Notes under the pieces: model-generated
The model's input: the letters and a program-made list of their open reading frames with translations, nothing else
Database searches by the model: none
What the model was told of the DNA's origin: nothing
From: Primulina eburnea
Lineage: Eukaryota; Streptophyta; Magnoliopsida; Lamiales; Gesneriaceae
Direction: 5' to 3'
Length of the DNA: 64,000 bases
Assembly: GCF_022965805.1 (NCBI RefSeq)
Contig: NC_133117.1
Location: 10,192,183 to 10,256,182 of the forward strand
Part shown: piece by piece, positions 13,279-39,592 of the stretch
Position numbering within the stretch: the stretch's first letter is position 1
Layout: every line of letters begins with the position of its first letter
Program-made: the position numbers and the translations under genes

Positions 13279-13311
13279 ATCAACGCCTTTAGAGCTCAGT
13301 GTTTCCCACAG

Positions 13312-13320
13312 ACGGCGCCA
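13312..13320 (-). other. Primer binding site, element B
   Basis: On the minus strand TGGCGCCGT starts one base after the 5' LTR. It complements the 3' end of plant tRNA-Asp (…ACGGCGCCA) for nine bases and then diverges. This sequence is typical of Tat-type elements. Confidence 0.65.
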
Positions 13321-13321
13321 A

Positions 13322-15973: not shown

Positions 15974-17670
15974 TGTGGGGACCCGGACGCTAATCATTTA
16001 CTTAATCATCTTTGGGATTTAATTATCAGTTCTGATAAACAGGGTCTAAAAATTTTTGTTTTTAAAGTGTAAATGCGGAAGGTAATGGAATCTAAATAAT
16101 ATACATCTCTGTATAACAACTACAATTCAGTAGAAAAGTACAATACTGTACAACCTCAGTCTAAGGTTTAGTTACTAAGTTCAAGTAATAAAACCAGTCT
16201 ACAGTAAATCCGGAATCACCACGCTATCTAGTCCAGCCTCTTTCTCATCTTGACCCTGATCCAGCCCCACCTGTTGTCATGCACACATACAAAACAAGAC
16301 AACAGCCGGATAACTCCGGTGAGAATAAATCCCAGTATAAAACATGGTAAGAATGTATATAAATAATCTAAATCATAAAACATGCTATCATGGACATATT
16401 CAAAAGTAATAGATTTCATAATCTATGAAATCTACTCAAAATAAGCATGTAACTCAATTCAGATAAACATGCAATTCAAATCAAATCATATAAACATGCT
16501 ATCATACTGAAAGCAATAAACATGGGTTTCATAGTCTATGAAACCACATCTATAAACGCATGCTGTTCTAGTCAAATCATGTCTAGACTCGACTCAACTA
16601 TAACTCTAGGGATCCCGTGATGAATAAGACGTCAATGGCTGTTACCTACTCAACCGATCGTGGTAACTGTACGTCTTATTCCTAGACTTCGGTCATGGCT
16701 GTATCGCATAATCTACAATAGGACAATGTCTGCTCTTATGTAACGATACACCGAACGTCTAGAAGTCTGACTGTTTCTGTCAAACTTTCCTATCTCAAAT
16801 GCAATGCATAACCATCTGTAAACAATGCATGATTATCTTAAAAGATTCGAATACAATTCTATAAACAAATCATAATCATATCAAAAGATAAACAATAATC
16901 AAGTATGTGATTTTATTAGGAAACTCAAATGAAATCTGATTTGAGTTGTATCTTCCCAGATATCACATGAATTATACCTTTGTCGTCCCGATCTGACGAT
17001 GACGAAGACCTGTATTCAACTCTGTCCATCTCGAATCTGAAATGACAATATTGAATACGCTGTATCAGTGAATAACTCTATATACAATCTGTTCTGATCA
17101 ATACTCAATTCAGTATACAATCTGATCAATGTCTGAACAAGATACAATCTGAGTCATATCAATAATATCACAATCTAATCGAAATCATATCTGAATCTGA
17201 TCAATATCAATCTACTGATGTTTCGATGGCATAACAACACAATCTGAATAACCCCGTCAATCTGAACATCACAAATATAATACTGGAACTCATAATATGT
17301 GTCAATATAATTCATACTCTGAATATTAACACAATTCTGATATAGAATCTCAGTCAATATCTTTCAAAAATCATAACAATTACGGAAACAGTCTGTTCTT
17401 TAATCTGATTTCAATTCTATAATGTCTACGGTAGCAGAAACACCATATCTGAATCATATTCAATTCTAGCAACATCATATTTTCAAAACATCTCAAAACG
17501 TAACAAAACTTACGTCCTTGTGTAGCTCGTGTCGAGAGGAACTCAGTACTGTACTCGGCTTCAAAAACAGACGAACGGATTCTTCGTAAATTGACTTCTA
17601 AAGTCACGATGTAAAACTCCTTTCCAATTCCCTCGATTTCCTTCGACTTTCTGTTGGAGAATTGCATGTA

Positions 17671-17709
17671 GATATATATATATATATATATAAATATATA
17701 TATATATAC
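17671..17709. repeat. (TA)n microsatellite, left LTR of D
   Basis: About 38 bases of TA dinucleotide with one AA interruption. The right LTR has about 100 bases at the same place (34680-34778). Confidence 0.95.
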
Positions 17710-17753
17710 ACGTCGCATTCCAAGACACCATGTGGCGATTTTTCATAATGCAT

Positions 17754-18020
17754 GCCGCGCGCATATGCGCGCACAAAGCCGCGCATATGCGCCGGCAATT
17801 CTGCCCGGCTGCTTCTGCCTCTCGCGCATATGCGCCCACTCGTCCGCGCATATGCGCCAAAGCTCCTGGATGTCCCGCGCATGTGCGCGCAATGAAGTCG
17901 CGCATGTGCGCGCATGCTTCTGTCCTCCTCGCGCATGTGTGCCGATACCCACCGCACATGTGCGCCAAATGTTCTGGATGCTCCGCGCATGTGCGCGCAT
18001 TTCTTCGCGCATGTGCACCA
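17754..18020. repeat. Array of GCGCATATGCGC-type palindromes in LTR of D
   Basis: About ten copies of a 12-bp palindrome or near-palindrome (GCGCATATGCGC, drifting to GCGCATGTGCGC) are spaced about 23-43 bp apart, with unrelated short spacers. The left half of the array uses CATATG and the right half CATGTG. The block is strongly GC-rich inside an AT-rich LTR, and on the minus strand it lies in the upstream (U3) part. The cores CATATG and CATGTG fit the E-box pattern CANNTG. Function is not known. Confidence 0.9.
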
Positions 18021-18171
18021 TGGCTTCGGCTTTGCTCGTGATTTGGTGCATTTTTCTTGTCTTATCCGGTCCTATCTGTTCCGTCTATAATTAAATCAAT
18101 TATCACCAATCATTATATTAATTATCGCCTAATCCTTTCTGATTAACGAAATACATTTCTCGGGCCTTGCA

Positions 18172-18185
18172 TTTCTCCCCCTCTT
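18172..18185 (-). other. Polypurine tract, element D
   Basis: The minus-strand reading AAGAGGGGGAGAAA abuts the 3' LTR. Confidence 0.85.
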
Positions 18186-19818
18186 AGATCTGAGTTCGTC
18201 CTCGAACTCACAAATACTCAATTCAGATATATCAGAAGAAATGTATACAAAGTTCAAAGCAGAACTCATCTCAATGAATCTGTTCTGAAATCTCAATCTT
18301 GCAATACTGGCTATACAACATCTGTATAAACCAAACTAAAGCTCATAACAAATTACTGTCATCAGCGGTTATCAAATCTGTTTATCCCGGTCAAGGATAT
18401 ATTCAATCTTGTCTTCAAATACCAATCGTCACCATCCGACGCTGGCATGATAAATCTGTCTGACCTGAGTTATTCTCATTCTATTCTGAATCAACTATCT
18501 TTTCTTTATCATATCTCTGACCGTATCAGCTCCTATCCCAAGTATCTCTGAGATATTATTCTGATTCAAAGAATCTATAGTACTCACTGTACACTATCTC
18601 ATCTGTACCTATCTCATAACCCCTCTGGTAATCTGATAAATAACATCATCTCATAACTCAGATAGTGACAATCTGTCATATCCACCAGTGCTAACATCCA
18701 ACACTGCAGCTTTTTGGATATCTTCCGATATCTGAATAGCACAATCTGGCTATTTTCTAATCAATCTGACAATTTCTTTGACATCGATCTTTGTCATCTG
18801 TTCATGTTTGTACGTTATCTGGTACAAACTAATCGATATAGATTGAACAATCTGTCAATCACAATCATATTCTATCGCAATATGGAAAGTATTGCTATAA
18901 TATTATTACGAAATTCATCGAAATATACTCTCCGTGTCGAATCAGAACTATACAATTCTGTAATAATCTCCTGATTTCTATCTTTTTGTCTTCATTTATT
19001 GGCAATTCAGTCATTTCAGTATAATTTCTGCCATAACTGATTTAATCTATCTATATCATACCTGTCTGTTCGAATCTCATACATTCTCAGTCAGCAAAAT
19101 GAATACTGAATCCACTACAATGCATTTCTGACACTGTCTGTAATTTCAGATTCAAACTATTCGGTATAACCAAATCAGTTAATAATGAGATTTAAAGAAA
19201 AATACCTACCTGGTATTCGGCTCTGATTATAAATATCAATTCTGTTATACAACTCTGAAACCTTCTGATATCATAACACAATCAGTCTAATACAAAACAC
19301 AAAATCGCATATCTGTTTCTCTGACCGATACTCTGCTCTGATTATCGAAATACTGTTCTGACCACTCTGATCATGTTTCGGAACGGCTGAAATTCTTGAA
19401 TTCATTTCTGATACAAGCTGAACTGTATATACTCTCAACGGTTCATAAAATCTGTATCAATACTGATTCAAAATAACAATAATCTATACTAATCTAGTAA
19501 ATATATAGGATTGTAAGTTCTAACAATACTATCGATTCTGACAAATCAATCAGATCTTCATGCCAGTCTGATCAACTGCTATATATCATCTGCAAATATA
19601 ATATGCTCTCCAAACAATACAATCTGTATAAAATACTGATTTAGAAGCAATCATTCTCAAGCAGTTCAAAACACAATTATATCAGATAATCTGTCAACTC
19701 GTACAATATCAATTTCTGACAATTCTAACATTTCTGACTTCCTGATCCTTCTGATATCGGTATCTGATCAGTCACTGTTGTGAATTCTGGATCTGGGTTT
19801 CCAATGGAACTCTGTTCC
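18186..19818 (-). other. Non-coding internal region of element D
   Basis: About 1.6 kb of AT-rich DNA with many TCTGA/TCAGA and CTGAT words, lying where pol would be in a complete element. I searched by eye on the minus strand for protease, YVDD, RNase H and integrase motifs and found none. Short frames here do not resemble anything. Confidence 0.6.
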
Positions 19819-20718
19819 CTACAATCTTCGGGAACGCTTCTGGGGACAGACTTTAGCAAAGTGTCCCGGCTGTCCACAAATATTATATCTACCAGTTACT
19901 CCCTGGCATTGTTCGGTGGAATGTCTCCCTCCCCAACTCCTGCAATACACTCCAGTATAGCTCGGACTAGAACTACTGGAACTCGAGGAATCACCCCCTA
20001 ACTTCTTGAATGGCTTCTTGCGGGCTTTCAGCAAATCTTGCTTCCCACTCGTACTGTCGTGATCATATCGAAGAGGGGATTGCTGTGTCTGAAGTGGCTT
20101 CACACACAACCTTGTCAATTGTCTAGTCAGACTCGCCTCCGCTCTCTTCGCTCTACTCAGGATATCAGCAAAATGTTAAGGTCGCTGCAAATTCATAAAT
20201 GCAACTACCTCCGAATTCAACCCTCTGATGAACTGATTTACTATAGCTTCATCATTTCCAGCTATCTGAGGAGCAAAATGCAGTAGAGTAGAGAATTTGG
20301 CAGTATATTCATCAATATTCAACTGACCTTGGCTCAAATTCTCAAACTCTGCTTTCTTGTCCTCTCGGTACGAGACTGAGAAAAATCTTCGATAGAATTC
20401 AGTTCTGAATATTTCCCACGAAATCACTGTACCTCTCTGTGCCCACATTCTTCTACTGGTAATCCACCAACTCCTGGCGGCTTCTCGTAACTGATAAGGT
20501 ACCATTTTAACCCTCTGTTCATCTGTACAATCAAGTAAATCAAACAAGATTTCTATATCATCAAACCAGTTCTGACAATCTTCAGATGTCTCGGTACCAT
20601 TCAGAACCGGCGGCTGTAATAACTCAAATTCTTTCATCTTTTCTTCTAACTGAGTTTCTGATACATCTCTCTGTTCAGACGAAGTACTGCCCTTTTCTGA
20701 AATTCTTCGAGGCGGTAT
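19819..20718 (-). pseudogene. Element D gag, start codon lost and one stop
   Basis: A chromovirus-like gag. The frame starts IPPRRISEKG at 20718; plant chromovirus gags commonly begin MPPRR, and the codon here is ATA, so the start seems lost. The gag core is clear: CQNWFDDIEILFDLLDCTDE, REAARSWWITSRR, FRTEFYRRFF, LSQGQLNIDEYTAKFSTL, FIRGLN. A TAA at 20176-20178 interrupts LQRP-stop-HFADILSRAKRAE. The tail has a Ser run and two zinc-knuckle segments; the first has lost a Cys (CRSW), while the second, ICGQPGHFAKVC, is intact. The gene ends KRSRRL-stop. It would supply capsid, not enzymes. Confidence 0.85.
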
Positions 20719-21065
20719 ATCTGATAATCAAACAGATTAGTACATAATCTATACAATCTGTCTCAGCCCTCCTCTGATCATATACCTCTGATTCAGACTC
20801 GGTTCTGATCCAGGCTTAGTAATTACATGCTGCAATCAACTCAGATAACAAACAACATGTAATAGGGAAATCAATAAATTATGTTAGCACACATCATGCA
20901 AGTCAACATTGACATAAATCTCATGCTAGCAATCACATGCAAGGAAAGAAAATTCAATCTACCCCGCTCATTCTCTTCTATCTCAGTCTAAAGAATCTAT
21001 CAACTCTGACTATCTCAGTCTAGAGGATCTATCGCTCTGATAATCTAAGTCTAAAGGAACTATCA
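20719..21065 (-). other. Leader region of element D
   Basis: About 350 bases between primer site and gag on the minus strand. No gene is visible. It has repeated TCTGATAATCTAAGTCTA-like words at 20985-21070, a weak short tandem structure. Confidence 0.5.
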
Positions 21066-21077
21066 GCTCTGATACCA
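21066..21077 (-). other. Primer binding site, element D
   Basis: TGGTATCAGAGC on the minus strand, five bases inside the 5' LTR. Initiator tRNA-Met priming is normal for plant chromoviruses of this type. Confidence 0.85.
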
Positions 21078-21082
21078 CCTGT

Positions 21083-21510
21083 TGTGGGGACCCGGACGCT
21101 AATCATTTACTTAATCATCTTTGTGATTTAATTATCAGTTCTGATAAACAGGGTCTAAAAATTTTTCTTTTTAAAGTGTAAATGCGGAAGGTAATGGAAT
21201 CTAAATAATATACATCTCTGTATAACAACTACAATTCAGTAGAAAAGTACAATACTGTACAACCTCAGTCTAAGGTTTAGTTACTAAGTTCAAGTAATAA
21301 AACAAGTCTACAGTAAATCCGGAATCACCACGCTATCTAGTCCAGCCTCTTTCTCATCTTGACCCTGATCCAGCCCCACCTGTTGTCATGCACACATACA
21401 AAACAAGACAACAGCCGGATACCTCCGGTGAGAATAAATCCCAGTATAAAACATGGTAAGCATGTATATAAATAATCTAAATCATAAAACATGCTATCAT
21501 GAACATATTC
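21083..21510 (-). repeat. Element D 5' LTR, first part (split by C)
   Basis: It matches 15974-16400 with about six differences. It ends at GAACATATTC, where element C enters; TATTC (21506-21510) is duplicated at 33410-33414. Confidence 0.92.
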
Positions 21511-22487
21511 TGTTAGGATCGGTTATTGACTAAGGAGTGTTTAGAAGGGGGGTTGAATAAACACTTCTAGGAATTTAAATGTTTTTCGAAAAAGGTAGTT
21601 CAGTTTTGTTACAAACTGAACTAAGTATCCCGTCGGTCAATATCAATCAGTTAAACTGAATAAGCAGTTGCGGAAAATAAACTGATTGAAAGATAGAATA
21701 TCTAACTGGAAATAAAGAGCTGAAGTAAAGATAACACAATATGTTTCTGGATGTTCGGAGAATTGAATAACTCCTACTTCACCCCTTCTATCACAAGGAT
21801 AGGATATTCACTAAAAGACTTTGATCGAGTACAACGCTTGTACAGACCCACTTCAGTTAGGACTTATCTATTGCCTGAACTGAAACTCTTAGTATAATAC
21901 AATGATCTCTGTAAGTAACTGAACTTAGCACTTATAGAATTATCAATATTTCAGAGTGCTAGTTTGCTCAATGTGTAGCCTTGATTGCTACGAGTAGATC
22001 TGATAAGTGTGAGCTGAGATTTTGACGGAGTAATGGCAAGTTTGAGATTGATCAATCGTATATTTTGTCAACTGCTCTTTAGTCATATTTATAGACTTAT
22101 CTTTCAATGGTAATTTTGAATTCTCGTATCCGTTGATTGCCATCTTATCATTTCTTGAACAATGTTCTCGATTGCCGCTTCATCATTTATTGTACGACGG
22201 CGTATTAATCTCAATAGCCGAAATACGTTGTTCTATGCAGTGCGGCTTTCCATATTCAGTTGCTGTCTGATATGTCTTTTTGTCTGTTGAATGATCTTTC
22301 CCGAGGTATCTTCAGTTTAGAAGCTTTAATGTTTTCGGCTGAATGTTTTAACTGATCTGTTCTCAACTGATCAGTTTGTGTCAACTGATTTCAGTTGAAT
22401 GTCCAGCTGCCGAATTTGCTTTCATGTATTAGTTGATTTGATCGTTTGATTTGTGTTTTGTCAAACTCCAGAATTTAGTTTCCAACA
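21511..22487 (-). repeat. Element C 3' LTR (left copy)
   Basis: On the minus strand it runs TGTTGGAAAC...GATCCTAACA. It is nearly identical to 32432-33409, with about seven substitutions and one G-run indel. TGTTGGAAAC also starts the 3' LTR of element A, but the LTR bodies differ. Confidence 0.95.
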
Positions 22488-22500
22488 ATTTCCCCCTTTA
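22488..22500 (-). other. Polypurine tract, element C
   Basis: The minus-strand reading TAAAGGGGGAAAT abuts the 3' LTR. The 200 bases between it and ORF3 are AT-rich and non-coding. Confidence 0.85.
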
Positions 22501-22705
22501 TGGTGTTTGACAAAACCAAGAGATTTAACTCAGCTCTTTGTTGATAATAGATTACGCAACTGAATCATAGAATATCTGAGTTTCTTGTAGATAATATAGA
22601 AGTCTGAGGAAATGATATCAGTTGATAATAATAGCTTGATTAATTCTTCATCTAATTCTTTAGCATAACTGAATCATAAAATAACTTGTCAAATGATATC
22701 ATTCT

Positions 22706-25294
22706 TCAGCTGCTTTCCCCCTTTTTGTCAAATATATCCATCTTGTCAGATAGCTTGCGAACGTGAGAAGAAAGAACCGTGATAGAGGATGACATATTTT
22801 CAATAGAAGTAGTCATTGTGACTTGCAGTAGTTCAATTTTCCGAGACACAAGCGATTCCACATTGTCGAAGCGTTGTGTAATTAATTCTTGAGTGGCAGT
22901 CAGACTGGACATGATACCTCTATTTTTCTGAATATCACCAACTGCAAAAGAGAGAGCGGTAACAGCAGATTGAATATCTTTCAGTCTTTTCAAGGATTCT
23001 TGATTATCATCCAACTTCAGACTGTGCGAAAGTTGCGTATTTTGAATTTTGGAGATGGCAGTAATTATTTGACTCATACTGTCCTGCATATGTTGGACTT
23101 CTTCAAAAATGAGATCAAAATCTGCTGAAGATGGAGGATTGGATTGTCGAGAAGTGCTTGGTTTACTTGTATCAAGTTCAGACACGATCAAGGCTTGATC
23201 AATCGAAATTGTTTCAGTAACATTTCGAACTGAAATATCAGCAGCAGGGATTTCTGCTTGATCCCGAGGTGGTGAGGAAGGTTTTTGGTCAGTTGATGGT
23301 GACACAATCTGAACTGATGTCTCTAGGGAATGATCGATTGAGTCATCTGGCATATCAGTTGGTATGACCTGATCAGCAGATTGATCTGGTGGAACAATTT
23401 CCACTGAAGGAATAGTGACCTCTGGATTGGTTTGATCAACAGAGTGATCAACTTTATCATTCACTGGTCCACTAAGGTGGGATTCCTCTACCACGGCTTG
23501 AATTACTTCATCAATATGAGCGAAAGACAGCTCTGCTTCAGTATATAGTTGTTGTTCAACAGGTGGTGAAGAAAGCTTATCAGAAATTGGCTCTTCAGTT
23601 GGAACAAGAACTAAAGCTGATGATGTTTCTGTTGTGTTAGAGGGTGCTTCTTCAACTAGTTCCACATCATCATCTGAATCTTCTTGGTAGACTACTAGTT
23701 CTTGATCCAATTCCCAAAATTTAATTCGAGAAAGTAGCCCTATAAGGTCAGTGTCAAGCTGAGTAATTACAGCTTGATCAGCATATGCAGTAGGACCAGT
23801 TGGCAAGTAGTTGTTTTTAAGCTTAGCTACAAATTGAGCCAACTTCTTTGCTCTCATCTGATCAAAGAAATAACTTTTCCTCTCTAAGGCTTGAGCAATA
23901 GAGGCAGCTTTGACAGTTCGAAGAACAAAGGCCTCCAGCTTGATGAATTTTCTGAGCTCGGACTTTTCCTTCAGTTGCTTGGCAAAAACCTAAGTACGAT
24001 AGGCTACCCAAGCATCATAGGACTTAGTCTTTGCAGCAGCAAAACTGTTCACTTTTCCCCATACCAGATCAATATGAGTTTGAATCGGGTTGGAGGGTCT
24101 GGGTTCTACAATCAACTTCCCTTTCCCTTTATCAGTACTCATGATATGAGGAATTTCCAGTCCGGTTCGAGTTGATTCAATCTGTTCTACAAACTTTATT
24201 CCTTTGGGTCTGGCAGGTGCTACACCAATTGGTCGAGGTATTTGAGTAACAGGAGCTTGGGTCCTAACGGATTTCTTTATGGTACTTACTGAATCAGCTT
24301 GTGGAATAATCTGTAGAGGAACTGCTTCTATAGGCTGCTGATCAGTAAAGGAAATCATTTTGTCAGTAGGAATGGATACCTCAGAAGTAGTTTTAACCCT
24401 TCGAGTTCTTGGCTTCTTCGCAATTTGAGGTGATGAAGTCTTATCTGACTCTGATGTACTCAAAATCAACTTCCTTTTGGCAACCTTCAGTTGAGCCAAC
24501 GTTTTGGTTTTCTTGACTGATTTGGGAGCAGCTAACTGAGTCCCAATTTCCTGTTTGATTCGCACAAACTGAGTAGGAGATATGTCCATTTTGGATTTAA
24601 TTGGCATCGTGTTCTTTGCATTGAACACCTTAAATTTCGACGTCTTCTCAGATTCCTCAGCCACTAAACCTTTTGCTTTCAGCAGATAACTGATTTGAAC
24701 AGCAAAACCCTTGGATTGTTTAGGAGACAGAAACATATTCTTCAAAATATTAAATATGAGATGCTTCCAGTTAAATTTGTGATTAGCCATTATTACAGTA
24801 ATGGCCTGAAATTTCTCCAAAGTTAGGGCAGCAAATGATTCAGCTTTTGCCAAAAGCCCTTTAGCAATTACATCGGCCAGCAATTGAACTTCATGCTTGA
24901 GTTTCTTTTTAGGATCAGAAACTTTAATCTTCTGTCCATCAGCAGAGAGAAGGGTTTGCATTTCCTCAATATCAGATGCTTTGACATCCGAAAGTTGTGC
25001 CATTCCTTCAGAAGGTATGAGAAATAAGTCACCAAGAGAATCTTCAGAGATGATCAGTAACTGACCATTGATAGTAGAATTGATATTTCCCTCAGAATTA
25101 ATCACGCCAGAAGAGTAGAAATCCTGAAGTTCTTTGGGATAGATATCCTGAGAGGATTGTCCCAAAAATGTTTTTAGACCAGCAGCTTCAAGTTTCTGAA
25201 ATACTTTCTGAACTTCAGCATCGCCGAAGGATAAGATAGATCCAAAATTGATGGCCATAGCATTTAGCATGAAAGCGGGAATTTGAGTCGCCAT
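22706..25294 (-). pseudogene. ORF3 of element C: long extra protein after pol, one stop
   Basis: One frame of about 862 residues in the gag-pol direction, interrupted by a TAG at 23990-23992 between VAYRT and VFAKQL. SIRE elements often carry an extra ORF here that has been called env-like. I see no signal peptide and no membrane-length hydrophobic run, so an envelope role is not supported. The first 240 residues look folded (FMLNAMAINFGSILSFGDAE, LQDFYSSGVINSEGNI, LLIISEDSLGDLFLIPSEGM) and resemble what I remember of putative plant transposon proteins; this is a weak recollection. The middle is Lys/Ser/Pro-rich. The C-terminal part is acidic and then probably coiled coil. Element A carries the same protein in decayed form. 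Confidence 0.75.
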
Positions 25295-25840
25295 TGAATG
25301 CTGAAAAATTTCTTGAAAGAAAATTCGAATGATGAGGTAGTTCTTGCTCTAAAGATGATTTGAAGTAGTCGAAAAGTAAAACTGAAATGAAGCGGGTAAT
25401 TGTACTAATGTTTGTGACTGTTTGAATTTTTGGACACGTGTCAGTCCAATAAAATTTTGAGTAAAAATATGTGTACGTGTGCTATAATCGTGTTTGTAAA
25501 ATAATGAGCAGTTAAAATTGATTCCACGTCATAAATTAAAATTCATCATTAGTTTAGCAGACAGTCACATCATTTGATTTGAAATATAATTGGTTAATTA
25601 GTTAACTTATATGAGAAGATTAGTGGAAAATTCGACTGGTAGATCAGTTGATAAGACTGGGTTCTTTCAGTCGAGAGTTCACTAACAACTGTCTTCTCAG
25701 TTAACTTCTTGAACCATTATTCCCCCTTAATAAATGCATTAACGCAAAATGACGGCTATAGTCGGTAATGATTAAAGTGAGTATGGTGCTCGGCATAGCA
25801 ATCGTCACAGAGTGAAGTTTCCTTTCATTTCCCTCTTGGC
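25295..25840. other. Divergent intergenic region, element C
   Basis: ORF3 (minus) and ORF-a (+) start away from each other across about 610 bases. A TATA box for ORF-a is at 25842. On the minus strand I see no convincing TATA box for ORF3. The region is AT-rich with no coding frame. Confidence 0.55.
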
Positions 25841-25841
25841 C

Positions 25842-25849
25842 TATAAATA
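25842..25849 (+). promoter_or_regulatory. TATA box of ORF-a in element C
   Basis: TATAAATA within CTATAAATAAG, 64 nt before the ATG at 25906. The same 11-mer is the TATA box of ORF-b in Gypsy element B (4375-4385). It drives transcription against the LTR promoter of C. Confidence 0.6.
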
Positions 25850-25905
25850 AGAGTGAAAGGGTTAGCCAAAATTATCTCAGCAAGTAAGTTTCAAAGATAA
25901 GGAAA

Positions 25906-26298
25906 ATGGCAGAAGCTGGAAGCTCAAGCGACGCTCAGTTTACACTGCAGGCCAGGAAGCAGTCCATGGAAGATGAAGTCTTCTATGCTAGCCTTCCTTA
26001 CTGGGAGGAGATGCAGGAACTAGAGTTCCTGTATTACTCTGGGCGGGTCTCTTCTTTCAGGCGAAAGGCCCAACTTCAAGAGGTGCGAGAGCTCCTAGAG
26101 GTTCCTGCGGGGGTGGACCTTTTTAAAGAGTGTTATCTCTACAAGCTCTTTCTTCTGAAGGAGCTAGAGATCCTCCGCCGCATCGCTGCCTCCCACAATT
26201 TCTACAAAACCTCTTCCTCAGCACTAGCTGCATGGATGAGTTTGTGGATAATTGCTGTGGAGAATGAATATGAAATTGTAACCGGCTCCTCTTCTTAA
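25906..26298 (+). CDS. ORF-a of element C: small antisense accessory protein, new family
   Basis: A 130-residue protein of unknown function, antisense to pol and ORF3 of element C. It is the closest relative in the window of ORF-a in Gypsy B (3513-3929), with a gap-free alignment from MEDEVF (residues 21-26) to VENEYE near the C-terminus. Conserved landmarks are YWE, FLYYSG, the Y.YKLFLLKE block, S..F.K.S, W...W and VE.EY. The N-terminus is Ser-rich (GSSSD), like that of the ORF-b protein in B. It is probably all-helical and soluble. The stop TAA at 26296-26298 lies in CTTAATAAAATA, overlapping an AATAAA signal. The frame is intact in a young element, which suggests recent selection for the protein or simply recent insertion. 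Confidence 0.78.
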   Translation: MAEAGSSSDAQFTLQARKQSMEDEVFYASLPYWEEMQELEFLYYSGRVSSFRRKAQLQEVRELLEVPAGVDLFKECYLYKLFLLKELEILRRIAASHNFYKTSSSALAAWMSLWIIAVENEYEIVTGSSS

Positions 26299-26634
26299 TA
26301 AAATATTTATTATGTTTTATCGTCTTTGTTCTTTTATTTCTGCCTGCAATGATCTGGAAGAGATATAATCACAAACACTTGCTGACATTAGTTAAGAACT
26401 CATAAGAGTAAGCAACTCATTTATATATTCAGTAAAGGTTAACAACAAATTACGATCAATGATTATGTAATCCTGTTATATGATCTAATGACATGCTAAC
26501 AATCATCAGTTTTGATAAGTAAATGAACTAATAAAATTCAAACTGTTATTAACTGATATCTTAAATGTCCTCGGTAAATGTGAGAGTCGATTTAATTGAC
26601 TTGTGATTCTTCAACTTCTTCAACACTTTTTTCT
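26299..26634 (+). other. Spacer between ORF-a and ORF-b, element C
   Basis: AT-rich, with no gene visible. It holds the 3' end of ORF-a and the promoter of ORF-b. Confidence 0.55.
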
Positions 26635-26641
26635 TATAAAT
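26635..26641 (+). promoter_or_regulatory. TATA box of ORF-b in element C
   Basis: TATAAAT preceded by CTTTTTTCT, 52 nt before the ATG at 26687. Confidence 0.55.
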
Positions 26642-26686
26642 GAGATGATAGTGGTGATAATGTGATCAGTTCAAAATTATTTCAAC

Positions 26687-27109
26687 ATGTCTGATTCTGA
26701 TGCATGCAGTAGCACGTATGTTCATGCGACTGATCAGTCAGCCCCTCGTTTAGCTGAAATTAAAAGAAAGATGGAGAAATATGTTTTTCAGAAGGTATTG
26801 ACATCCTGGGAAAAGATTGATGAGTTGAAGATGGTGAGTGACAGTGGTGTCATTCCTTTTCGTGCTCAGGAGAGAAGAGCACTGAAATACCTTGCTCGTT
26901 TTGAGGTTAGCCGCGTTAATGATTTGGTTGAAGACAAATGTCTTTTAGAAGCAATGCTATGGAAGGAGTGGCATGTTGTTGATAAGATTTCAAAGTCAAG
27001 GGCATTTGCTGGAGTTCGAATTTATGAGTTGAATGACTGGATTAGGGCATGGCTAGATACAGTTGGATCTATGATTTCTTCTGTAAATTGGGAACGTTGG
27101 TATTCTTAA
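26687..27109 (+). CDS. ORF-b of element C: small antisense accessory protein, new family
   Basis: A 140-residue protein of unknown function and the second member of the pair in element C. It aligns with the broken ORF-b of Gypsy B over its whole core, most strikingly at LLEAMLWKEWHVVDKIS against LLHAMLWKEWHHLNKIS, followed by F(A), I..., DW and a second W. It also aligns more distantly with both ORF-a proteins (VFQKVLTSWEKIDELK against VFQKIICYWEKLHKLQ of B). Seven-residue spacing of hydrophobics suggests helices. No signal peptide or membrane segment. The stop context CTTAATGAAATA belongs to the shared pattern. Its stop is only 13 bases from the pol stop at 27123 on the other strand, so the two genes converge and their transcripts should overlap. 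The frame is intact. Confidence 0.78.
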   Translation: MSDSDACSSTYVHATDQSAPRLAEIKRKMEKYVFQKVLTSWEKIDELKMVSDSGVIPFRAQERRALKYLARFEVSRVNDLVEDKCLLEAMLWKEWHVVDKISKSRAFAGVRIYELNDWIRAWLDTVGSMISSVNWERWYS

Positions 27110-27122
27110 TGAAATATTATTA

Positions 27123-30100
27123 TCAATTTGTTGTATTCTTATTTTCTGCACTTAATTCTGTTAGTGAAGTTATATCAATTAAACCAAGAATATTTCGGAA
27201 ATAAGAAAACTTAGCCTCTGGTAACGGTTTTGTGAAGATGTCTGCTGCTTGTTGTTCCGTTGAGACGTATTCTAATCTGATGTTCTTCTTTAGTGCATGA
27301 TCTCTGATGAAATGATGTCTGACATCTATATGCTTAGTCTTGGAGTGAAGAACTGGATTGTATGCAATAGCTATTGTACTAGTGTTGTCACAGAATATTG
27401 GTGATTCCTTTGCATCAACACCATAATCTTTCAGTTGTTGCTGAATCCAGAGCAGTTGGGCACAGCAGCTTCCAGCAGCAAGATATTCTGCTTCAGTTGT
27501 GGAAGTTGCTATGGATGTTTGGTTTTTACTGAACCAAGAGATCAGTCTGTCTCCAAGAAACTGACATGATCCACTTGTACTTTTACGATCAAGTTTGCAT
27601 TCTGCATAATCTGCATCTGAATAGCCAACTAAATTGAAAGATGAGTCTTTAGAGTACCATAAACCAACATTTTCCGTGCCTTTAAGATATCTCAAGATAC
27701 GTTTGGACGCAGAAAAATGTGACTGCTTAGGGTTAGCTTGAAATCTTGCACATATACATACAGCAAACATAATATCAGGGCGACTAGCAGTTAGGTACAA
27801 TAAAGAACCTATTAAACCTCTGTATAGTGTCGTCTCAACTGATATTCCCCCTTGATCAGTGTCTAATTTAACTGATGAACTCATTGGAGTGCTTGCTGCT
27901 GAACAAGATTCCATGCCAAATTTTCTTAGCAATTCCTTGGTATAATTGGTTTGACTAATAAATGTTTCTGAATCCAGTTGCTTCACTTGTAAACCAAGAA
28001 AGAATGTCAGCTCACCCATCATGCTCATCTCGAATTTATCCTGCATCAGCTTGGAAAATTTCTTGCATAATTTGGGGTTAGTTGACCCAAAAATAATATC
28101 ATCAACGTAAATTTGAACAAGTAAGATATGATCATTTTTCGAGAATTTAAACAAAATCTTATCAACTGATCCAACAGAAAAATCATGACCAGTTAGGAAT
28201 TTTGAGAGGGTTTCATACCAAGCCCGTGGAGCTTGTTTGAGACCATATAATGCCTTGTTTAAATGATAAACGTGATCAGGAAAATTATGATTGACAAAAC
28301 CTGGAGGTTGTTCAACGTAGACTTCTTCTTGCAATTGGCCATTTAGGAATGCACTTTTCACATCCATTTGATAGACTTTAAAGTTTTTGAAGGATGCATA
28401 GGCAAGAAATATTCTGATTGCCTCCAGTCTTGCAACTGGTGCATATGTTTCATCATAATCAATTCCTTCTTCTTGTCTATACCCTTGTGCCACTAACCTT
28501 GCTTTTTTGCGCACAACTGAACCATCTTCGTTTAGTTTGTTTCTGTACACCCATTTTGTACCTATAACAGTTTTAGAAACTGGTCTTGGAACTAAGTTCC
28601 AGACATTGTTATGAACAAACTGATTTAGCTCTTCTTGCATTGCATTAATCCAATTAGGATCAGTAAGAGCTTCGGCAGTTTTTGTTGGTTCGATTTGAGA
28701 TACAAAATCTGAATGAATAAATAAATTGAGCATCTGATTTCTTGTTCTTACTGGATCAGATGGGTTACCTATTACCAGTTCTGGAGGATGTGATTTCTTC
28801 CATCTAAATTCAGCATTGGGTGCTTCACAGCCAGCAAATTCTTCATTAGGTAACTGAATGTTCTCAGTTTCAGTTGGAGCTGATTCAGTTGATAATTGAT
28901 TTTCATTAGTTTGCTCCACTAACTGATTGTCAAGATTTGATTTCAATTCAGCTGGTTGATCCAATATCTCAGGTTCAGGTGTATGAAAGATATTCTGATT
29001 ATTACGACTTTCGTCTGAGTCATCATCTTCCAGACTGATATCTGTAAATCGATCAGCTAGCTCAACTTGATCATTTGGCTTATCGATTAGTGCAGTTTCA
29101 TCAAAATCAACATGTGCAGATTCTTCAACATTCAAGGTTTTCTTATTAAATACTCTGTAAGCTATGCTAACTGATGAATATCCAAGGAATATTCCTTCTG
29201 CTGATTTGACATCGAATGCTTTTAGATAATTTTTACCATTGTTATGAATAAAACATCTACAGCCAAATATTTTGAAGTAAGTGATTATGCTTTTTCTTCC
29301 ATGACAGATCTCATATGGTGTTTTCATGTGATTTTTATTAATCATTGATCTGTTCTGAGTGTAGCATGCAGTGTTTACTGCTTCTGCCCAAAATCTTTGA
29401 GAAATACCAGAATCAGCAAGCATTGTTCTAGCAGCTTCTTTAAGAGTCCGATTCCTTCTCTCAGCCACACCGTTTTGCTGAGGTGTTCTTGCTGCTGAGA
29501 ACTCATGCTTGATTCCAGTATTTTCTAAAAAGTTTGAAAGTGTTTGATTGATGAATTCAGTTCCTCGATCAGATCTGATTCGATCAATCCCAACTGATTT
29601 TTCATTTAAAAGTCTTTTGAAGAGTTTAATCAGTTGTGCAGCAGTATGGTCTTTGGATTTGAGAAATATAACCCAAGTAAATCTTGAAAAGTCATCTACG
29701 ACCACTAAGGTGTATTTCATTCCCCCTAAGCTCATGACTGGTATTGGACCAAAGAGATCCATGTGCAATAATTCTAAGCATCGGGATGAAGATTTACAGC
29801 CTTTGTTTTTGAAAGAGGATCGAACTTGTTTTCCATACTGACATGCTGAACAAGGTTTTTCTTTTGAAAAATTTATTTTGGGCAAACCAGTTACAAGTTC
29901 ATGCTTACTCAGATAGGCAATAGATTTAAAATTTAAATTATTTAACCGTTTATGCCACAACCAGTTTTGAGATGATTTAGACGCAATAAAGCATACTGGT
30001 GTATAAGGTTGATCATTCCAGCTGACTTTGTAAGTGTTTCCACACCTTTTGCCAGTTAGAATAATCTCTTCAGTTGAGTTTTTGACTGAACAAGAGTGTT

Positions 30101-30377
30101 TGTAAAACTGAACTGAAAATCCATTATCGCATAACTGACTAATGCTTATCAGATTATACTTAAGATTCTCGACTAATAAAATATCATTAATGGTGAAGTT
30201 ACCATGGATAAGCTTACCCTTACCCACAGTTTTACCTTTGGAATTATCCCCAAAACTGATGTTTGGACCATTGTATTTGACCAGTTGAGACAATAAGTTT
30301 GAATCTCCTGTCATGTGTCGTGAACATCCACTGTCCAGATACCATATTGATTCAATGCTTGTACTTATTGCCTGCAA
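27123..30377 (-). CDS. Element C pol: protease, integrase, reverse transcriptase, RNase H
   Basis: A complete Copia polyprotein of 1,084 codons without a stop. In order: protease ([15 protein letters not shown]), GAG-pre-integrase finger ([10 protein letters not shown]...CSAC), integrase with Asp in LLHMDLFGP, Asp in RSDRGTEF and Glu in [12 protein letters not shown], reverse transcriptase ([37 protein letters not shown]) and RNase H ([45 protein letters not shown]). The finger has Asn where the second His is expected (RLNNLNF; element A has RLNHLNF), which may weaken zinc binding. There is no ATG near the start: the frame opens at TAA-TTGCAGG just after the gag stop and in another frame, so pol needs frameshifting, readthrough or splicing to be made. 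Confidence 0.92.
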
Positions 30378-30409
30378 TTAAATACAAAATAAGATTCTGG
30401 TACCCTTTT

Positions 30410-32373
30410 CTATTTGGGTCCAAAGTTGATTAGTCCTTTAGGAATCCAGACTTGAATCAGTTTAACTGACCGTCCTGTTGCTGTATTCCATATGGTCCTT
30501 CCCTGTTTGTGTGTGCTTGGTGTATGGTGTGTAGAGGATACAACATGTGTTTTGACCTTTTTCAACTGATTATTCAGCCGATATCTTTTCTGAATTGGCT
30601 TACTGTTGTAGTAGTTTGAGTAGCCATATGAATATTTTCTGCTGAGAGTTTTTGGTTGTTGATTCCATGAGTCAGTCTTACCCTTTGGATTATATCCAAT
30701 TCTACATCTCATACCTTTATTCATATTTTGAGATGGCTGTTCAATCAGTTTGCTCGACTCTTCTTGATTTTGTACCGTAACTGATTTTACAAAGTGAATA
30801 TATTTCCCTTTGTTCATATTCAGTTTTGGTTGAGTATCTTGGGAAGACAAATCATCTTTATTACAGAATCCTAAACCAGTTTTATCATCAACTGATTTCT
30901 GAGAATTCTGTATATTAGTTAAAGCTTTAGATGATTTGTTCCAAACTTGAATGAGCTCATTGAGCTTTGTATTTTCAAGCGACATTTTTTGAACCATTGA
31001 TTGATTCCTGCTTCTTTCATCAGTGAGTTCAGCAATCTCCCTTCTTAGACTCAACATTTCAACTGATTCATCAGTTTTTGTTTTATTGTCTTTGGGATCA
31101 TCTTGCTTTGCTCTGAGTTTTTCAAATGATAAAGCAAGCTTTTGATACTCATTGACCATGTCATGAAGAGTTGAGATGAGTTCTTCTCGTGTAAAATTAA
31201 TAGAGCTAAAATCAAATACCTGCTCGCAGCTTGATTGATCTTCTATGTTATCTGCCATTAGACATGTTACTTCTTCCTCATCCTCACTTGAACTGCAAGA
31301 GCTTTCTGGATCTGACTCTTCGCTGTCAGTTTCTGCCCATTTGGCTTTGCTGTCTTCAGCTAGGAGTACTTCATGTTTCTTCTTGCAAGGCTTCTTTTCG
31401 TCCTTAGATCTTTTTTTGTGCTCATACATTTTCTTCTTCCTTTCAGTTGAGGTTTGATTATCCTTTTTAGGCTTTGGACAGTTGGCAATAAAGTGACCGG
31501 ATTTCCCACAGTTGAAACATACATTAGACTCTTCTCTGGAGTTGTTTCTTTGATAATTCTTCTGAAAATTTCCTTGATTTTTTCTCATGAATCTTCCAAA
31601 TTTCTTAATAAATAGAGACATGGCATCATTGCTCAGCTGATCAGCAGTTTTCTCAACTGAACCAGTTGATTCATTTCTAACAGCAGTCAAGGCAGTAGTT
31701 GCTGCTGGAGTAGATGGTTCTCCTTCTCGAGTTTGAAGTTCAAACTCATATGCTTTTAGATCTGCAAATAAATCATGAAATTCAACTTTGTTAAGATCTT
31801 TGGATTCCCTCATTGCCATAGTTTTGACATCCCATTCTTTGGGAAGTCCTCTGATTACTTTCAATACTACTTCTTTATTTGTATACACTTTTCCAAGTGC
31901 ATTTAGTTCGTTGATGATACAGCTTGTTCTTTCATCATACTCATCCATTGTTTCTCCCATCTTCTGATGTTGTCGAATTTCTGCATAGCAACTGAAAGTT
32001 TGTTTTCTTTTGTTTGATCATTTCCTTCGCAAAGTTGAATTAATTTCTCCCAAATTTCTTTGGCGGTTTTGCACATTTTGATCTTACTGAACGTTACTTT
32101 GTCCAGTGTCTTATATAATATATCTTTTACAACGTTGTCTAGATTTGCCTTTCTCTTGTCCTCTGTAGTCCACTCATCTCGAGGCTTTTCAATTCGGTGA
32201 GGTGCCCCTTCAGTGATAGCAACAGCTGTGTTTGCTTTCAAAATTTTCATGGGTCCGTCAGTTATGACGTACCACATGTCATCGTCTTGTGCAGCTAGAT
32301 GAGCCTGCATTCTGATTTTCCAATCATCAAAATCTTCCCTGGAGAACATTGGAATCTTATTGAATGAAGACAT
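30410..32373 (-). pseudogene. Element C gag, one frameshift
   Basis: A Copia gag of about 650 codons. The ATG at 32373 gives MSSFNKIPMFSREDFDDWK; the frame opens further upstream in the primer site, but that start is unlikely. The core matches gag of element A. At about 31956-31972, within NIRR|MGETMDEYD, the frame shifts by one base, and the rest (31960 to 30410) continues in the new frame with the CCHC knuckle CFNCGKSGHFIANC, a Lys-rich region, an acidic Ser/Glu patch and KGKYIHFVKSV. It ends GLINFGPK-stop, the same place as in A. Everything else in C is nearly intact, so the indel may be recent or a sequence error. Confidence 0.88.
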
Positions 32374-32417
32374 AGTGATTAGATTGAGGATAGATAATCT
32401 TTGACAGGATATGCCTT

Positions 32418-32429
32418 GCTCTGATACCA
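32418..32429 (-). other. Primer binding site, element C
   Basis: TGGTATCAGAGC on the minus strand, two bases inside the 5' LTR. Confidence 0.9.
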
Positions 32430-32431
32430 CT

Positions 32432-33409
32432 TGTTAGGATCGGTTATTGACTAAGGAGTGTTTAGAAGGGGGGGTTGAATAAACACTTCTAGGAATTTAA
32501 ATGTTTTTCGAAAAAGGTAGTTCAGTTTTGTTACAAACTGAACTAAGTATCCCGTCGGTCAATATCAATCAGTTAAACTGAATAAGCAGTTGCGGAAAAT
32601 AAACTGATTGAAAGATAGAATATCTAACTGGAAATAAAGAGCTGAAGTAAAGATAACACAATATGTTTCTGGATGTTCGGAGAATTGAATAACTCCTACG
32701 TCACCCCTTCTATCGCAAGGATAGGATATTCACTAAAAGACTTTGATCGAGTACAACGCTTGTACAGACCCACTTCAGTTAGGACTTATCTATTGCCTGA
32801 ACTGAAACTCTTAGTATAATACAATGATCTCTGTAAGTAACTGAACTTAGCACTTATCGAATTATCAATATTTCAGAGTGCTAGTTTGCTCAATGTGTAG
32901 CCTTGATTGCTACGAGTAGATCTGATAAGTGTGAGCTGAGATTTTGACGGAGTAATGGCAAGTTTGAGATTGATCAATCGTATATTTTGTCAACTGCTCT
33001 TTAGTCATATTTATAGACTTATCTTTCAACGGTAATTTTGAATTCTCGTATCCGTTGATTGCCACCTTATCATTTCTTGAACAATGTTCTCGATTGCCGC
33101 TTCATCATTTATTGTACGACGGCGTATTAATCTCAATAGCCGAAATACGTTGTTCTATGCAGTGCGGCTTTCCATATTCAGTTGCTGTCTGATATGTCTT
33201 TTTGTCTGTTGAATGATCTTTCCCGAGGTATCTTCAGTTGAGAAGCTTTAATGTTTTCGGCTGAATGTTTTAACTGATCTGTTCTCAACTGATCAGTTTG
33301 TGTCAACTGATTTCAGTTGAATGTCCAGCTGCCGAATTTGCTTTCATATATTAGTTGATTTGATCGTTTGATTTGTGTTTTGTCAAACTCCAGAATTTAG
33401 TTTCCAACA
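32432..33409 (-). repeat. Element C 5' LTR (right copy)
   Basis: The promoter LTR of C on the minus strand. CTATAAATAT on the minus strand (33007-33016) is the likely TATA box. It is followed at 33410-33414 by TATTC, the target duplication in the LTR of D. Confidence 0.95.
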
Positions 33410-34677
33410 TATTCAAAAGTAATAGATTTCATAATCAATGAAATCTACACAAAATAAGCATGTAACTCAATTCAGATAAACATGCAATTCAAATCAAATC
33501 ATATAAACATGCTATCATACTGAAAGCAATAAACATGGGTTTCATAGTCTATGAACCACATCTATAAACGCATACTGTTCTAGTCAAATCATGTCTAGAC
33601 TCGACTCAACTATAACTCTAGGGATCCCGTGATGAATAAGACGTCAATCGCTGTTACCTACTCAACCGATCGTGGTAAATGTACGTCTTATTCCTAGACT
33701 TCGGCCATGGCTGTATCGCATAATCTACAATAGGACAATGTCTGCTCCTATGTAACGATACACCGAACGTCTAGAAGTCTGACTGTTTCTGTCAAACTTT
33801 CCTATCTCAAATGCAATGCATAACCATCTGTAAACAATGCATGATTATCTCAAAAGATTCGAATACAATTCTATAAACAAATCATAATCATATCAAAAGA
33901 TAAACAATAATCAAGTATGTGATTTTATTGGGAAACTCAAATGAAATCTGATTTGAGTTGTATCTTCCCAGATATCACATGAATTATACCTTTGTCGTCC
34001 CGGTCTGACGATGACGAAGACCTGTATTCAACTCTGTCCATCTCGAATCTGAAATGACAATATTGAATACGCTGTATCAGTGAATAACTCTATATACAAT
34101 CTGTTCTGATCAATACTCAATTCAGTATGCAATCTGATCAATGTCTGAACAAGATACAATCTGAGTCATATCAATAATATCACAATCTAATCGAAATCAT
34201 ATCTGAATCTGATCAATATCAATCTACTGATGTTTCGATGGCATAACAACACAATCTGAATAACCCCGTCAATCTGAACATCACAAATATAATACTGGAA
34301 CTCATAATCTGTGTCAATATAATTCATACTCTGAATATTAACACAATTCTGATATAAAATCTCAGTCAATATCTTTCAAAAATCATAACAATTACGGAAA
34401 CAGTCTGTTCTTTAATCTGACTTCAATTTTATAATGTCTACGGTAGCAGAAACACCATATCTGAATCATATTCAATTCTAGCAACATCATATTTTCAAAA
34501 CATCTCAAAACGTAACAAAACTTACGTCCTTGTGTAGCTCGTGTCGAGAGTAACTCAGTACTGTACTCGGCTTCAAAAACAGACGAACGGATTCTTCGTA
34601 AATTGACTTCTAAAGTCACGATGTAAAGCTCCTTTCCAATTCCCTCGATTTCCTTCGACTTTCTGTTGGAGAATTGC

Positions 34678-34779
<102 letters not shown>

Positions 34780-34823
34780 GTCGCATTCCAAGACACCATG
34801 TGGCGATTTTTCATAATGCATGC

Positions 34824-35094
34824 CGCGCGCATATGCGAGCACAAAGCCGCGCATATGTGCCGGCAATTCTGCCCGGTTGCTTCTGCCTCTCGCGCATATG
34901 CGCCCACTCGTCCGCGCATATGCGCCAAAGCTCCTGGATGTCCCGCGCATGTGCGCGCAATGAAGTCGCGCATGTGCGCGCAATGAAGTCGCGCATGTGC
35001 GCGCATGCTTCTGTCCTCCTCGCGCATGTGCGCCGATACCCACCGCGCATGTGCGTCAAATGTTCTGGATGCTCCGCGCATGTGCGCCATGGCT
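34824..35094. repeat. Palindrome array, right LTR of D
   Basis: About ten copies of GCGCATATGCGC/GCGCATGTGCGC, as in the left LTR. The AATGAAGTCGCGCATGTGCG unit is present twice in a row here, so the array changes by unit gain and loss. Confidence 0.9.
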
Positions 35095-35245
35095 CCGGCT
35101 TTGCTCGTGATTTGGTGCATTTTTCTTGTCTTATCCGGTCCTATCTGTTCCGTCTATAATTAAATCAATTATCACCAATCATTATATTAGTTATCGCCTA
35201 ATCCTTTCTGATTAACGAAATACATTTCTCGAGCCTTACAGTAAA

Positions 35246-36601: not shown

Positions 36602-39587
36602 TGTAGAACCAGTAACTTAGACTACGTATAAGCCATGTATAATTCTAGTATTTTAAATTAAATTGACTTCATTGCATGAATATTTAAATGCTTTTCTTTG
36701 AATTTAATTATTTTAGCCAGCAGTTTGATTTTTATTCATTTCAGTTATTTCAGTGAGGCCGGACTGGAGTTGGAACTTTGAGATAGAATTTAAGATTCAG
36801 AAAACATTTTCAGGATTTATTTTAGCTATCAAGTAAGTTCATTTAAGTTAATAAGAAGGTTTGAGGATTTATTTAGTTACTTGAGGTGAGTAGGAAATTA
36901 ATTCAATTAAGTTCCAATTATTAAGGGTTTTATTCACTAAATTATTTAAGGGATTTGTGAGGCTTTTAAGAGTTATTAATTTAGTAAATAAACAACACTT
37001 CCCATTCATTTTTATTAATAAATTTCGGCCCCTAGTTGATAGTGTATTGCCTTGCCAACTCATCACCCTTTTGACCCTTTCTTTGCATGTAATTAGTAGG
37101 ATAATTCTATGATTTTTGGGGGCACCATTTAATTAATTATTAGAGCTTATCCTAACCCATTCCTAGCCTTGAAGAAATCGGCCACCCCATTCTAGAATCA
37201 TCCAACAAGCCATTTGCTATCAACCAAATTCAAAATTCAAATTTAAAAAGGGGGAGACTTGGTCTTGATTTCTCCCATATATTTTGCACCCACTACCCTC
37301 ACTCCCCTAACCATTTTCCCCTCTCCCTAATCTCGAAAATCAGAGCACTTTTCAGAGTAAAAATTGTGAGTCTTAACTAGAAAGAAAGGGAAAGAAATCG
37401 AGTAGAAGGAAAGGAAAGAAAGCGTTCCACTCCTCCGCGCCGCGTCGTCGTCGTTTCGTTCGTTTTCTTTCAAAACGAAACCAGGCATGTCTAGATTTCT
37501 TTCAAACCTCAATCAAGTCCTACTATTATTTTAAACATCACTTTTACATGATTTTTATTCAAGAAAAACCGAAATTTCATCAAGCATTTTCGAAATGCAT
37601 GTGCAGAATTTTTTTGACTTTCATGATGCTCTTCACGGTTTTCTCTTGTTTCAGTGCTATAGGTTATGGATCGACTCCAAGCTCCCAAGGCTGTTCCTAG
37701 ACATGTAATAGGATGCATTAGGACCATGTTGGTCCATTCATTCAGCCCCCATACTTGCTGGAAAACCGAAATGACAGCAAGCTCCCCATAGGTGCAAGAT
37801 TGGGTTCGAAAAATTCAGTTTTGATGTCAAAGGGATATGAATATGATCATGGCTGCCCCAAGGCCTATAGCCATGGTTAGATCACTTTCCTAGCATGTCT
37901 AAGACGTGACTAAGTCGCCCTTTTGGTGGCTTGGTCCATGGTTACTCGGTTTTCAATTAAAACATCAAGAACAGCCCCTACACCCTTCGGCCCCTTCATT
38001 ATACAGCATGTATTGATTCGATTTTTGGTAATGGTGTGGATCTTGGTTGGCCTATGGCCCTTAGCCAAGGTTCATACCATACCCCAAGACGTCTAGATCG
38101 TGCCATGGTCAAACAAATGGCCACTGGAACGAGTCGAGACAGCAAGCGAAGCACAACACCACACACGCACGCATGAGGCCCTCGGTAAGAGTTTTCGGTT
38201 GGTTGCTGGAATGGTGAGGATTGTGGCTGTCCTAGGGCCCTTACCCATGGTTCAAATCATTCCTTGAGATGTTGGTAAGAGTCTCTGGTCGGTGGTTCAC
38301 GCCCCAATGGCCGGTAGTCTCGAAAACAACACAAGACATGCAATTGCGCAGTTGCTGGAATTTGACAGCAACTTGCTGTGACGGTTTGGAGGCTCGTCTG
38401 AGTTATTGGTTGGATTTTAGCCCTTGGCATTGGATTGGACAGTGCCCCATCGAGTTAGGAAGGTCATGTTTTTTACCGTTTGTAATTCGGATCATTTTTG
38501 AGGTCGTACGAGAATTTACGGTGTGATGTGCCAAATTGACTCTCGAAAGAGCGTTTCATGTTTTGGCCTCCATTTCACCTAGATTTCGACCCTCATCATT
38601 TTAGGAGCATTATTTCATTATTTTAAGCGTATTTTAATCATGACTATATGACGGTTCAGTGTTGGTTCGGGTTTGGTTCGGAGTCATGATTTAAAATACG
38701 GAGTCGTTAGACGTAGTTGTCGCATTGTCAAATTTAATTGCATAGTTGGTCAAGTAAAAGCTATTGCATATTTTTCATGGCACCTTTAGGTTGCAGCGAG
38801 CTTGGGAGCGATCCTATCCAGTTGGTAAAATTACAGGATTTTCATTATGCCATTTAATTATATTACGTGCATAAAATTAGAAAATACTTATTTTTGAGAT
38901 TTATGCGATATTGCTTATGGTCAATTCACTATTATGGGAGCATTATTTTACACGGTCGCCAGTGACCGGTCAGTTCAGTTTGGTACCATCCGGTCGCCAG
39001 TGACCGGTCAGTTCAGTTCAGTTTGATACTCTCCGGTAGCCAATTACCGATCAGTTCAGTTCAGTGCAGGGGCCACAGGCGTATACCATAATCTCAACAG
39101 AAAATTGTTACCAGTTATTTCAGTACAGATTTTCAGTTCAGTTATGCACATATTATAATTGCTCAGTACAAGTTATTTTCAGTATGCCTCATGACATGAT
39201 ATTTTATCCCATGCAAAATTTTACTATAGTATTTACTCGTTATCTACGATATATGCATGTTGAGTCTTTAGACTCACTAGACTTGATTGTTGTAGGTACT
39301 GATGAGGCTAGGGCCGAGGGCGGGGACCAGTGAGCCAGCTTAGGTCGGCAGTAGTGGCACCCGAGGACCTCATTTACAGCAATCGTCATTTTATGCAAAC
39401 ATTTTATCAGTTGTTGGATATTCTTTAACTTGTTACTTTTGCAAACTTTAAATTCTTTCGCTGCTATTTTTTTAGCATTAAACGTTATTTAACAGTTTAT
39501 TTTATGAATTTGATACTTCATTTAATTTAAAAAGAAAATTTTTAATTTTCCGCAAATTTTTCAAGCAAGGATTTTTAGGCCTTTATA
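36602..39587. mobile_element. Element E: probable solo LTR of a Gypsy element
   Basis: A 2,986-bp block interrupts ORF3 of A between RLN and HILTDEKGKGK. GAACA flanks it on both sides (36597-36601 and 39588-39592). The block starts TGTAGAACC and ends CTTTATA, so TG...TA rather than TG...CA. No gag or pol motif lies inside. The tail has a tandem CGGTCGCCAGTGACCG block (38953-39065) followed by features I associate with long chromovirus LTRs. A solo LTR left by LTR-LTR recombination explains length, target duplication and lack of genes; a large non-coding non-autonomous element is the alternative. Orientation is not certain. Confidence 0.6.
38953..39065. repeat. Short tandem repeat with inverted CGGTC...GACCG core
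   Basis: Three units begin at about 38953, 38991 and 39034. Each has an imperfect hairpin (CGGTCGCCAGTGACCG in the first two, CGGTAGCCAATTACCG in the third) followed by GTCAGTTCAGTT. In the third unit the two arms have changed together, CGGTC/GACCG to CGGTA/TACCG, so pairing is kept. Confidence 0.85.
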
Positions 39588-39592
39588 GAACA

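Follow-up and report, generated by a model that had tools for sequence, protein, structure and literature searches.

Copia and Gypsy are the two main superfamilies of plant retrotransposons. Retand, Grande and RIRE2 elements contain antisense ORFs, chiefly encoding TRP28 (PF04195), which run opposite to gag-pol and are located between pol and the 3' LTR, as are the genes described here (PMC11963269, PMC7264820). Such antisense genes are typical of Retand (PMC11963269), and in Grande an own promoter has been reported for gene23 and a nuclear location for the antisense protein (PMC7264820). The Retand survey considered ORFs of at least 600 bp, and genes of the size described here would be absent from it unless they bore TRP28 (PMC11963269). 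Among Copia elements, SIRE is characterized by extra ORFs in sense orientation between pol and the 3' LTR, which are present in 74% of SIRE elements, and a survey with a minimum of 250 codons recorded 582 Copia elements with extra ORFs (PMC6317226). Furthermore, env-like genes are stated to be present in some lineages of each of the two plant superfamilies, and a domain screen starting from 121 plant genome assemblies reports no domain gain in Copia among its results (PMC9289625).

Exchange of accessory ORFs between distant retroelements has been described in bdelloid rotifers, where ORF3 types are common to LTR retrotransposons and Penelope-like elements; these are of the GDSL, DEDDy, coiled-coil and transmembrane types, and the account given of them describes no two-gene antisense cassette (PMC5408684). 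A further parallel is provided by the plant mobile domain proteins of Gypsy elements, which are element-borne accessory proteins with host relatives (MAIN/MAIL1) and a proposed anti-silencing function (PMC8616336, PMC6317226). Together with VANC21, they are examples of element proteins known or proposed to counter silencing (PMC8616336).

The analysed stretch of 64,000 nucleotides from Primulina eburnea (hereafter the window) contains a Gypsy element (Gypsy B) and an only distantly related Copia element (Copia C), each carrying two small genes, a and b. In Copia C, aC (25906-26298, 130 aa) and bC (26687-27109, 140 aa) are encoded on the + strand, antisense to the Copia gag-pol, and 13 nt separate the bC stop from the convergent pol stop. 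In Gypsy B, aB (3513-3929, 138 aa) is likewise encoded on the + strand, antisense to the Gypsy gag-pol. An earlier note on this DNA had listed four small genes, including one for ORF-b of Gypsy B at 4420-4864. While aC, bC and aB are intact ORFs, the reading frame at 4420-4864 is interrupted in the present copy: the N-terminal half of bB is encoded at 4420-4677 (85 aa) and the C-terminal half at 4643-4864, in another frame that is open from 4643 (both + strand). This frame break had been overlooked, and the antisense orientation to pol, the promoters and the poly(A) signals had gone unmentioned. In both elements, a precedes b along the antisense strand and both genes are located between pol and the 3' LTR. 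In Gypsy B, a TRP28 gene is situated between b and pol, and in Copia C two sense ORFs lie between the 3' LTR and a. Compared with the antisense ORFs of Retand, a and b constitute a separate family of about 130-140 aa, comprising two paralogues and present also in a Copia element. In contrast to the characteristic ORFs of SIRE, they are antisense and fall below the 250-codon limit of the respective survey (PMC6317226).

Gypsy B spans 2393-14077 on the - strand, with CTGCT on both flanks and LTRs (2393-3148 and 13322-14077) that are 98.2% identical. Its gag-pol (8070-13278, - strand) consists of gag (12115-13278), RT (10487-12091) and an ORF (8070-10466) encoding RNase H (RT_RNaseH, 103-204), a second RNase H (RVT_3, 244-358) and the integrase zinc finger and core (447-613). 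A second RNase H between RNase H and integrase, as present in Gypsy B, is a feature common to Ogre and Retand (PMC6317226). In addition, Gypsy B contains, like Retand, an antisense TRP28 gene between pol and the 3' LTR (5723-7738, + strand), consisting of three ORFs with GT-AG intron-like gaps; the match to Transposase_28 (TRP28, PF04195) in 5723-6436 (E 1.2e-5) reaches 25.9 bits, just below the cut-off of 26.2. The intron-like GT...AG stretches are found at about 6399-6471 and 7062-7123, and the gene may be spliced. Judged by these sequence features, Gypsy B is a Retand/Ogre-type Gypsy (Ty3/Gypsy, Tat clade).

Copia C spans 21511-33409 on the - strand, with LTRs (21511-22487 and 32432-33409) that are 99.1% identical and the target-site duplication TATTC. 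Its gag-pol (27123-32430, - strand) comprises gag in two frames (30410-32430) as well as integrase and RVT_2 (in 27123-30377). The two sense ORFs (22706-25294, - strand; 434 and 383 aa) lie between pol and the 3' LTR, like the extra ORFs of SIRE (PMC6317226), and gave no Pfam family above the cut-off. The SIRE 5' LTR/PBS junction has been described as CA/ATTGG (or AGTGG)/TATCAGAGC (PMC2829016), a pattern which the Copia C junction CA/AGTGG/TATCAGAGC fits. SIRE elements also share the PPT octamer AGGGGGAG with an AT/TG junction and several copies in the linker (PMC2829016). The PPT of Copia C reads AGGGGGAA followed by AT/TG, one base off AGGGGGAG; its linker contains no copies of AGGGGGAG and three copies of AGGGGGA. 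By its LTR/PBS junction and sense ORFs, Copia C can be classified as a SIRE-like Copia. The earlier assignment of one Copia and one Gypsy carrier is supported.

The four genes encode one protein family. One copy of Gypsy B and one of Copia C were analysed, and the ten pairs among five pieces (aC, bC, aB and the two of bB) were aligned locally and compared with 1000 shuffles each. In eight of the ten pairs, no shuffle reached the observed score. With score and z value in brackets, these are aC-aB (215; 33), aB-bC (116; 17.6) and aC-bC (92; 11.7), bC with the first (79; 13) and the second (136; 22) piece of bB, aB with the first (75; 12) and the second (62; 8.8) piece of bB, and aC with the second piece of bB (50; 6.4). 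Of the true cross pairs, aC with the first piece of bB is the weakest (score 41, z 4.2), with 4/1000 shuffles as high. The two bB pieces are unlike each other (281/1000 shuffles as high), but two halves of a protein need not be alike. In a tblastn search of the window with aC, aB was matched over 108 residues without a gap, at 37.0% identity and an E value of 3e-22, in agreement with the roughly 38 identities in 104 ungapped residues that had been counted by hand. The motifs LLxAMLWKEWH and KIS, noted before as common to ORF-b of both elements, were recovered in the alignment, as was VFQK...WEK, from which ORF-a and ORF-b had been taken to be distant relatives. The homology of all four genes proposed in the earlier note therefore stands, and the likeness between the Gypsy and Copia members is significant for both genes. 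A family profile run against all six frames of the window gave nothing above the inclusion threshold beyond the five pieces, which it recovers by construction, being built from them.

Tree building, a step suggested in the same note, grouped aB with aC and bB with bC, with 2000/2000 bootstraps and an IQ-TREE support of 100 in the C-terminal half (71 columns), and with 1816/2000 bootstraps and a support of 89 in the N-terminal part (51 columns). As the tree pairs the genes in this way, the duplication that gave rise to a and b preceded the event by which Copia and Gypsy came to have both genes in common. The two genes therefore moved, or were captured, as a unit, i.e., a two-gene cassette.

Conservation, compared between the two elements, is visible at the codon level. 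Codon positions 1/2/3 are identical in 54/78/46 of 108 codons between aC and aB, in 30/39/19 of 54 between bC and the second piece of bB, and in 46/55/28 of 97 between aB and bC; the difference between positions 2 and 3 is significant for aC-aB (p = 2e-5) and for bC-bB second piece (p = 2e-4). This bias, with position 2 best kept, reads as the pattern of a conserved protein. The NG86 method gave a dN of 0.52 and a dS of 3.5 for aC-aB and YN00, with far less contrast, a dN of 0.66 and a dS of 0.95, so that the dN/dS contrast is method-dependent for sequences so far diverged; no usable dS was obtained for bC-bB with either method.

Each of the four genes is preceded by a TATA box on the + strand, located at 3451-3459 for aB (-62 and -60 from the ATG), 4376-4382 for bB (-44), 25842-25848 for aC (-64) and 26635-26641 for bC (-52). 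A TATAWAW motif starting 40-80 nt ahead of the ATG was found in 4/4 family genes and in 5/89 other ATG ORFs (9 of the 93 ATG ORFs of at least 60 aa in the window, the four family genes included), and such a motif lies ahead of 4.3% of window positions. Furthermore, poly(A)-like signals overlap all four stops on the + strand: AATAAA at 3925-3930 (aB), AATAAG at 4863-4868 (bB), AATAAA at 26297-26302 (aC) and AATGAA at 27108-27113 (bC). Among the other ATG ORFs of at least 60 aa, 5/90 share this feature; the 8 positive ORFs in the set of 93 include aB, aC and bC, while the true bB stop is outside the set because the second piece is too short. Seven of 35 ORFs ending in TAA carry the signal, three of these being family members, and part of the poly(A)-like signal therefore comes with the stop codon. 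From its sequence, each gene looks self-contained, with a TATA box followed by a short leader, the ORF and a poly(A)-like signal over the stop.

Promoter likeness was assessed in ten pairs against 285 TATA-centred control windows, and the following figures are uncorrected for the ten pairs. The promoters of aB and aC are alike (0/285 and 5/285 controls as high), as are those of aB and the TRP28 gene, both in Gypsy B (0/285 and 1/285); bB-aC follows with 1/285 and 11/285. The likeness is weaker or absent in bB-bC (5/285 and 44/285), aC-bC (8/285 and 29/285), aB-bB (67/285 and 27/285) and aB-bC (237/285 and 190/285). Whole upstream, intergenic and downstream stretches showed no alignment beyond chance in seven pairs (27-164/300 shuffles as high). 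The TATA contexts before aB (3449-3462) and before the TRP28 gene (5307-5320) are identical at 13/14 bases.

AlphaFold2 modelling, likewise suggested in the earlier note, gave helical models of aB (pLDDT 86.0), with four main helices, and of bC (pLDDT 75.7), in which the main helices follow in the same order. Both proteins are thus predicted to adopt four-helix folds, without a convincing relative. A Pfam scan of the five pieces gave no family above the cut-off, the sole report being DUF2594 for aB (17.3 bits, cut-off 24). No match of the five pieces to TRP28 (PF04195) was reported in that scan, which had a maximum E of 10 and filters that drop most matches above 0.1, and none to the plant mobile domain, from which a and b differ as a family by sequence.

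Taken together, the most likely explanation is a cassette transferred from one element to another and coding for an accessory regulator that works as a pair. We lean, by a modest measure, towards a two-gene antisense cassette of ancient paralogues, located between pol and the 3' LTR, that was handed as a block between a Retand-type Gypsy and a SIRE-like Copia. Block transfer would account for the common order and orientation and the own promoters in both elements, features that a single captured mRNA would leave unexplained. Separate capture of the same tandem host gene pair by both elements appears unlikely, albeit worth serious consideration, as each gene, having a TATA box and a poly(A)-like signal of its own, resembles an entire plant gene of small size and as plant LTR elements do take up host domains, such as an m6A demethylase in an orchid Gypsy (PMC9289625). 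The proteins, however, gave neither a Pfam family above the cut-off nor a convincing relative among solved structures searched by sequence (best E 0.48), and the order and orientation of the genes are identical inside both elements. Transfer is favoured over two such captures because, in addition to order and orientation, the element region and the resemblance of the gene-a promoters are shared.

An origin of both copies from a third mobile source, such as a plant virus, a pararetrovirus or another transposon, is improbable. An unknown virus has been offered by Vicient as a possible origin of the Retand antisense region (PMC11963269), and no relative of a or b was found in this analysis, as would fit such a source. 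However, when IMG/VR, a collection poor in plant viruses, was scanned with three patterns, none of the 384, 4 and 6 candidate stretches was a confirmed relative. The aB model had no match at E <= 0.001 among predicted viral protein structures, and inverted repeats enclosing the two genes are lacking, with no pairs in B and 7 short ones in C. That the antisense RNA matters rather than the protein, with the ORFs being incidental, is very doubtful: antisense transcription itself can regulate elements (PMC7264820) and bB is frame-broken in this copy, yet aC and aB match over 108 ungapped residues with a bias towards position 2, at a divergence at which the intergenic sequence no longer aligns. The split between a and b predates that between the carriers, which would also suit a pair that the ancestor of the two superfamilies already carried and that was lost almost everywhere else. 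The superfamily split is far older than the flowering plants, and this scenario is barely credible, as it requires loss in nearly all lineages and as aC and aB retain 37% identity and a similar promoter despite that far older split.

Returning to block transfer, the cassette would most simply have moved by template switching between co-packaged genomic RNAs, or else by DNA recombination. Two points weakly favour a direction from Gypsy to Copia, namely the likeness of the aB and TRP28 promoters within Gypsy B and the fact that Retand elements typically carry antisense genes. The proteins would be produced from antisense transcripts with their own promoters, independently of the LTR promoter, and could be made while the latter is silent. 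The reverse orientation would spare the genomic RNA from the poly(A) signals of the genes, and the signals over the stops may keep the antisense messages short. As two paralogues are kept together in both carriers, we hypothesize that the a and b proteins act as a pair, either as homo- or heteromers. By analogy with known element proteins, a role in regulating the element, e.g., by countering silencing or tuning transcription, appears likeliest. As a tentative synthesis, to which we give somewhat less than an even chance, a self-transcribed antisense module of two genes encoding a paired four-helix regulator would be an accessory unit that moves among plant LTR retrotransposons. It would have passed between Gypsy and Copia by recombination of co-packaged RNAs, been kept in both by selection, and gone unseen owing to survey cut-offs or a focus on known domains.

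The earlier note had announced a new route of gene flow among retroelements. This is too strong in view of the ORF sharing in bdelloid rotifers (PMC5408684) and the env-like genes of both plant superfamilies (PMC9289625), but the literature matches listed include no report of an antisense family common to plant Copia and Gypsy. With 130-140 codons and no Pfam domain, a and b would be missed by surveys that require 250 codons, 600 bp or a known domain (PMC6317226, PMC11963269, PMC9289625), which exposes short antisense genes without known domain as a blind spot. The finding suggests an exchange of accessory genes among mobile elements that belong to different families. If a shared, selected two-gene cassette is confirmed, accessory functions can spread between superfamilies, and the elements would encode a function from which both superfamilies benefit, perhaps in countering a host defence that acts on either. 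Its source and direction are directly testable by a tree once plant genomes are compared.

The window also contains an older copy of the Copia C family (Copia A, 580-42291), with LTRs that are 93.2% identical. Copia A contains Gypsy B and, in its pol, a further element (F, 15974-35240) with Copia C inside. Element F has LTRs of about 2.2 kb and an interior of only about 2.9 kb, carries Copia C in its right LTR, and looks like a large non-autonomous LTR element. As C lies in F, and F and B each lie in Copia A, B and C are separate insertions, neither containing the other. The part of Copia C that lies between the end of pol and the first sense ORF has no match in Copia A, which gives no date for the gain by Copia; at 36604-39591, Copia A contains about 3 kb of other sequence. 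Towards the end of the window, a direct repeat (55124-56281 and 62852-63999), 91.6% identical over about 1.16 kb, perhaps represents the LTRs of a further element.
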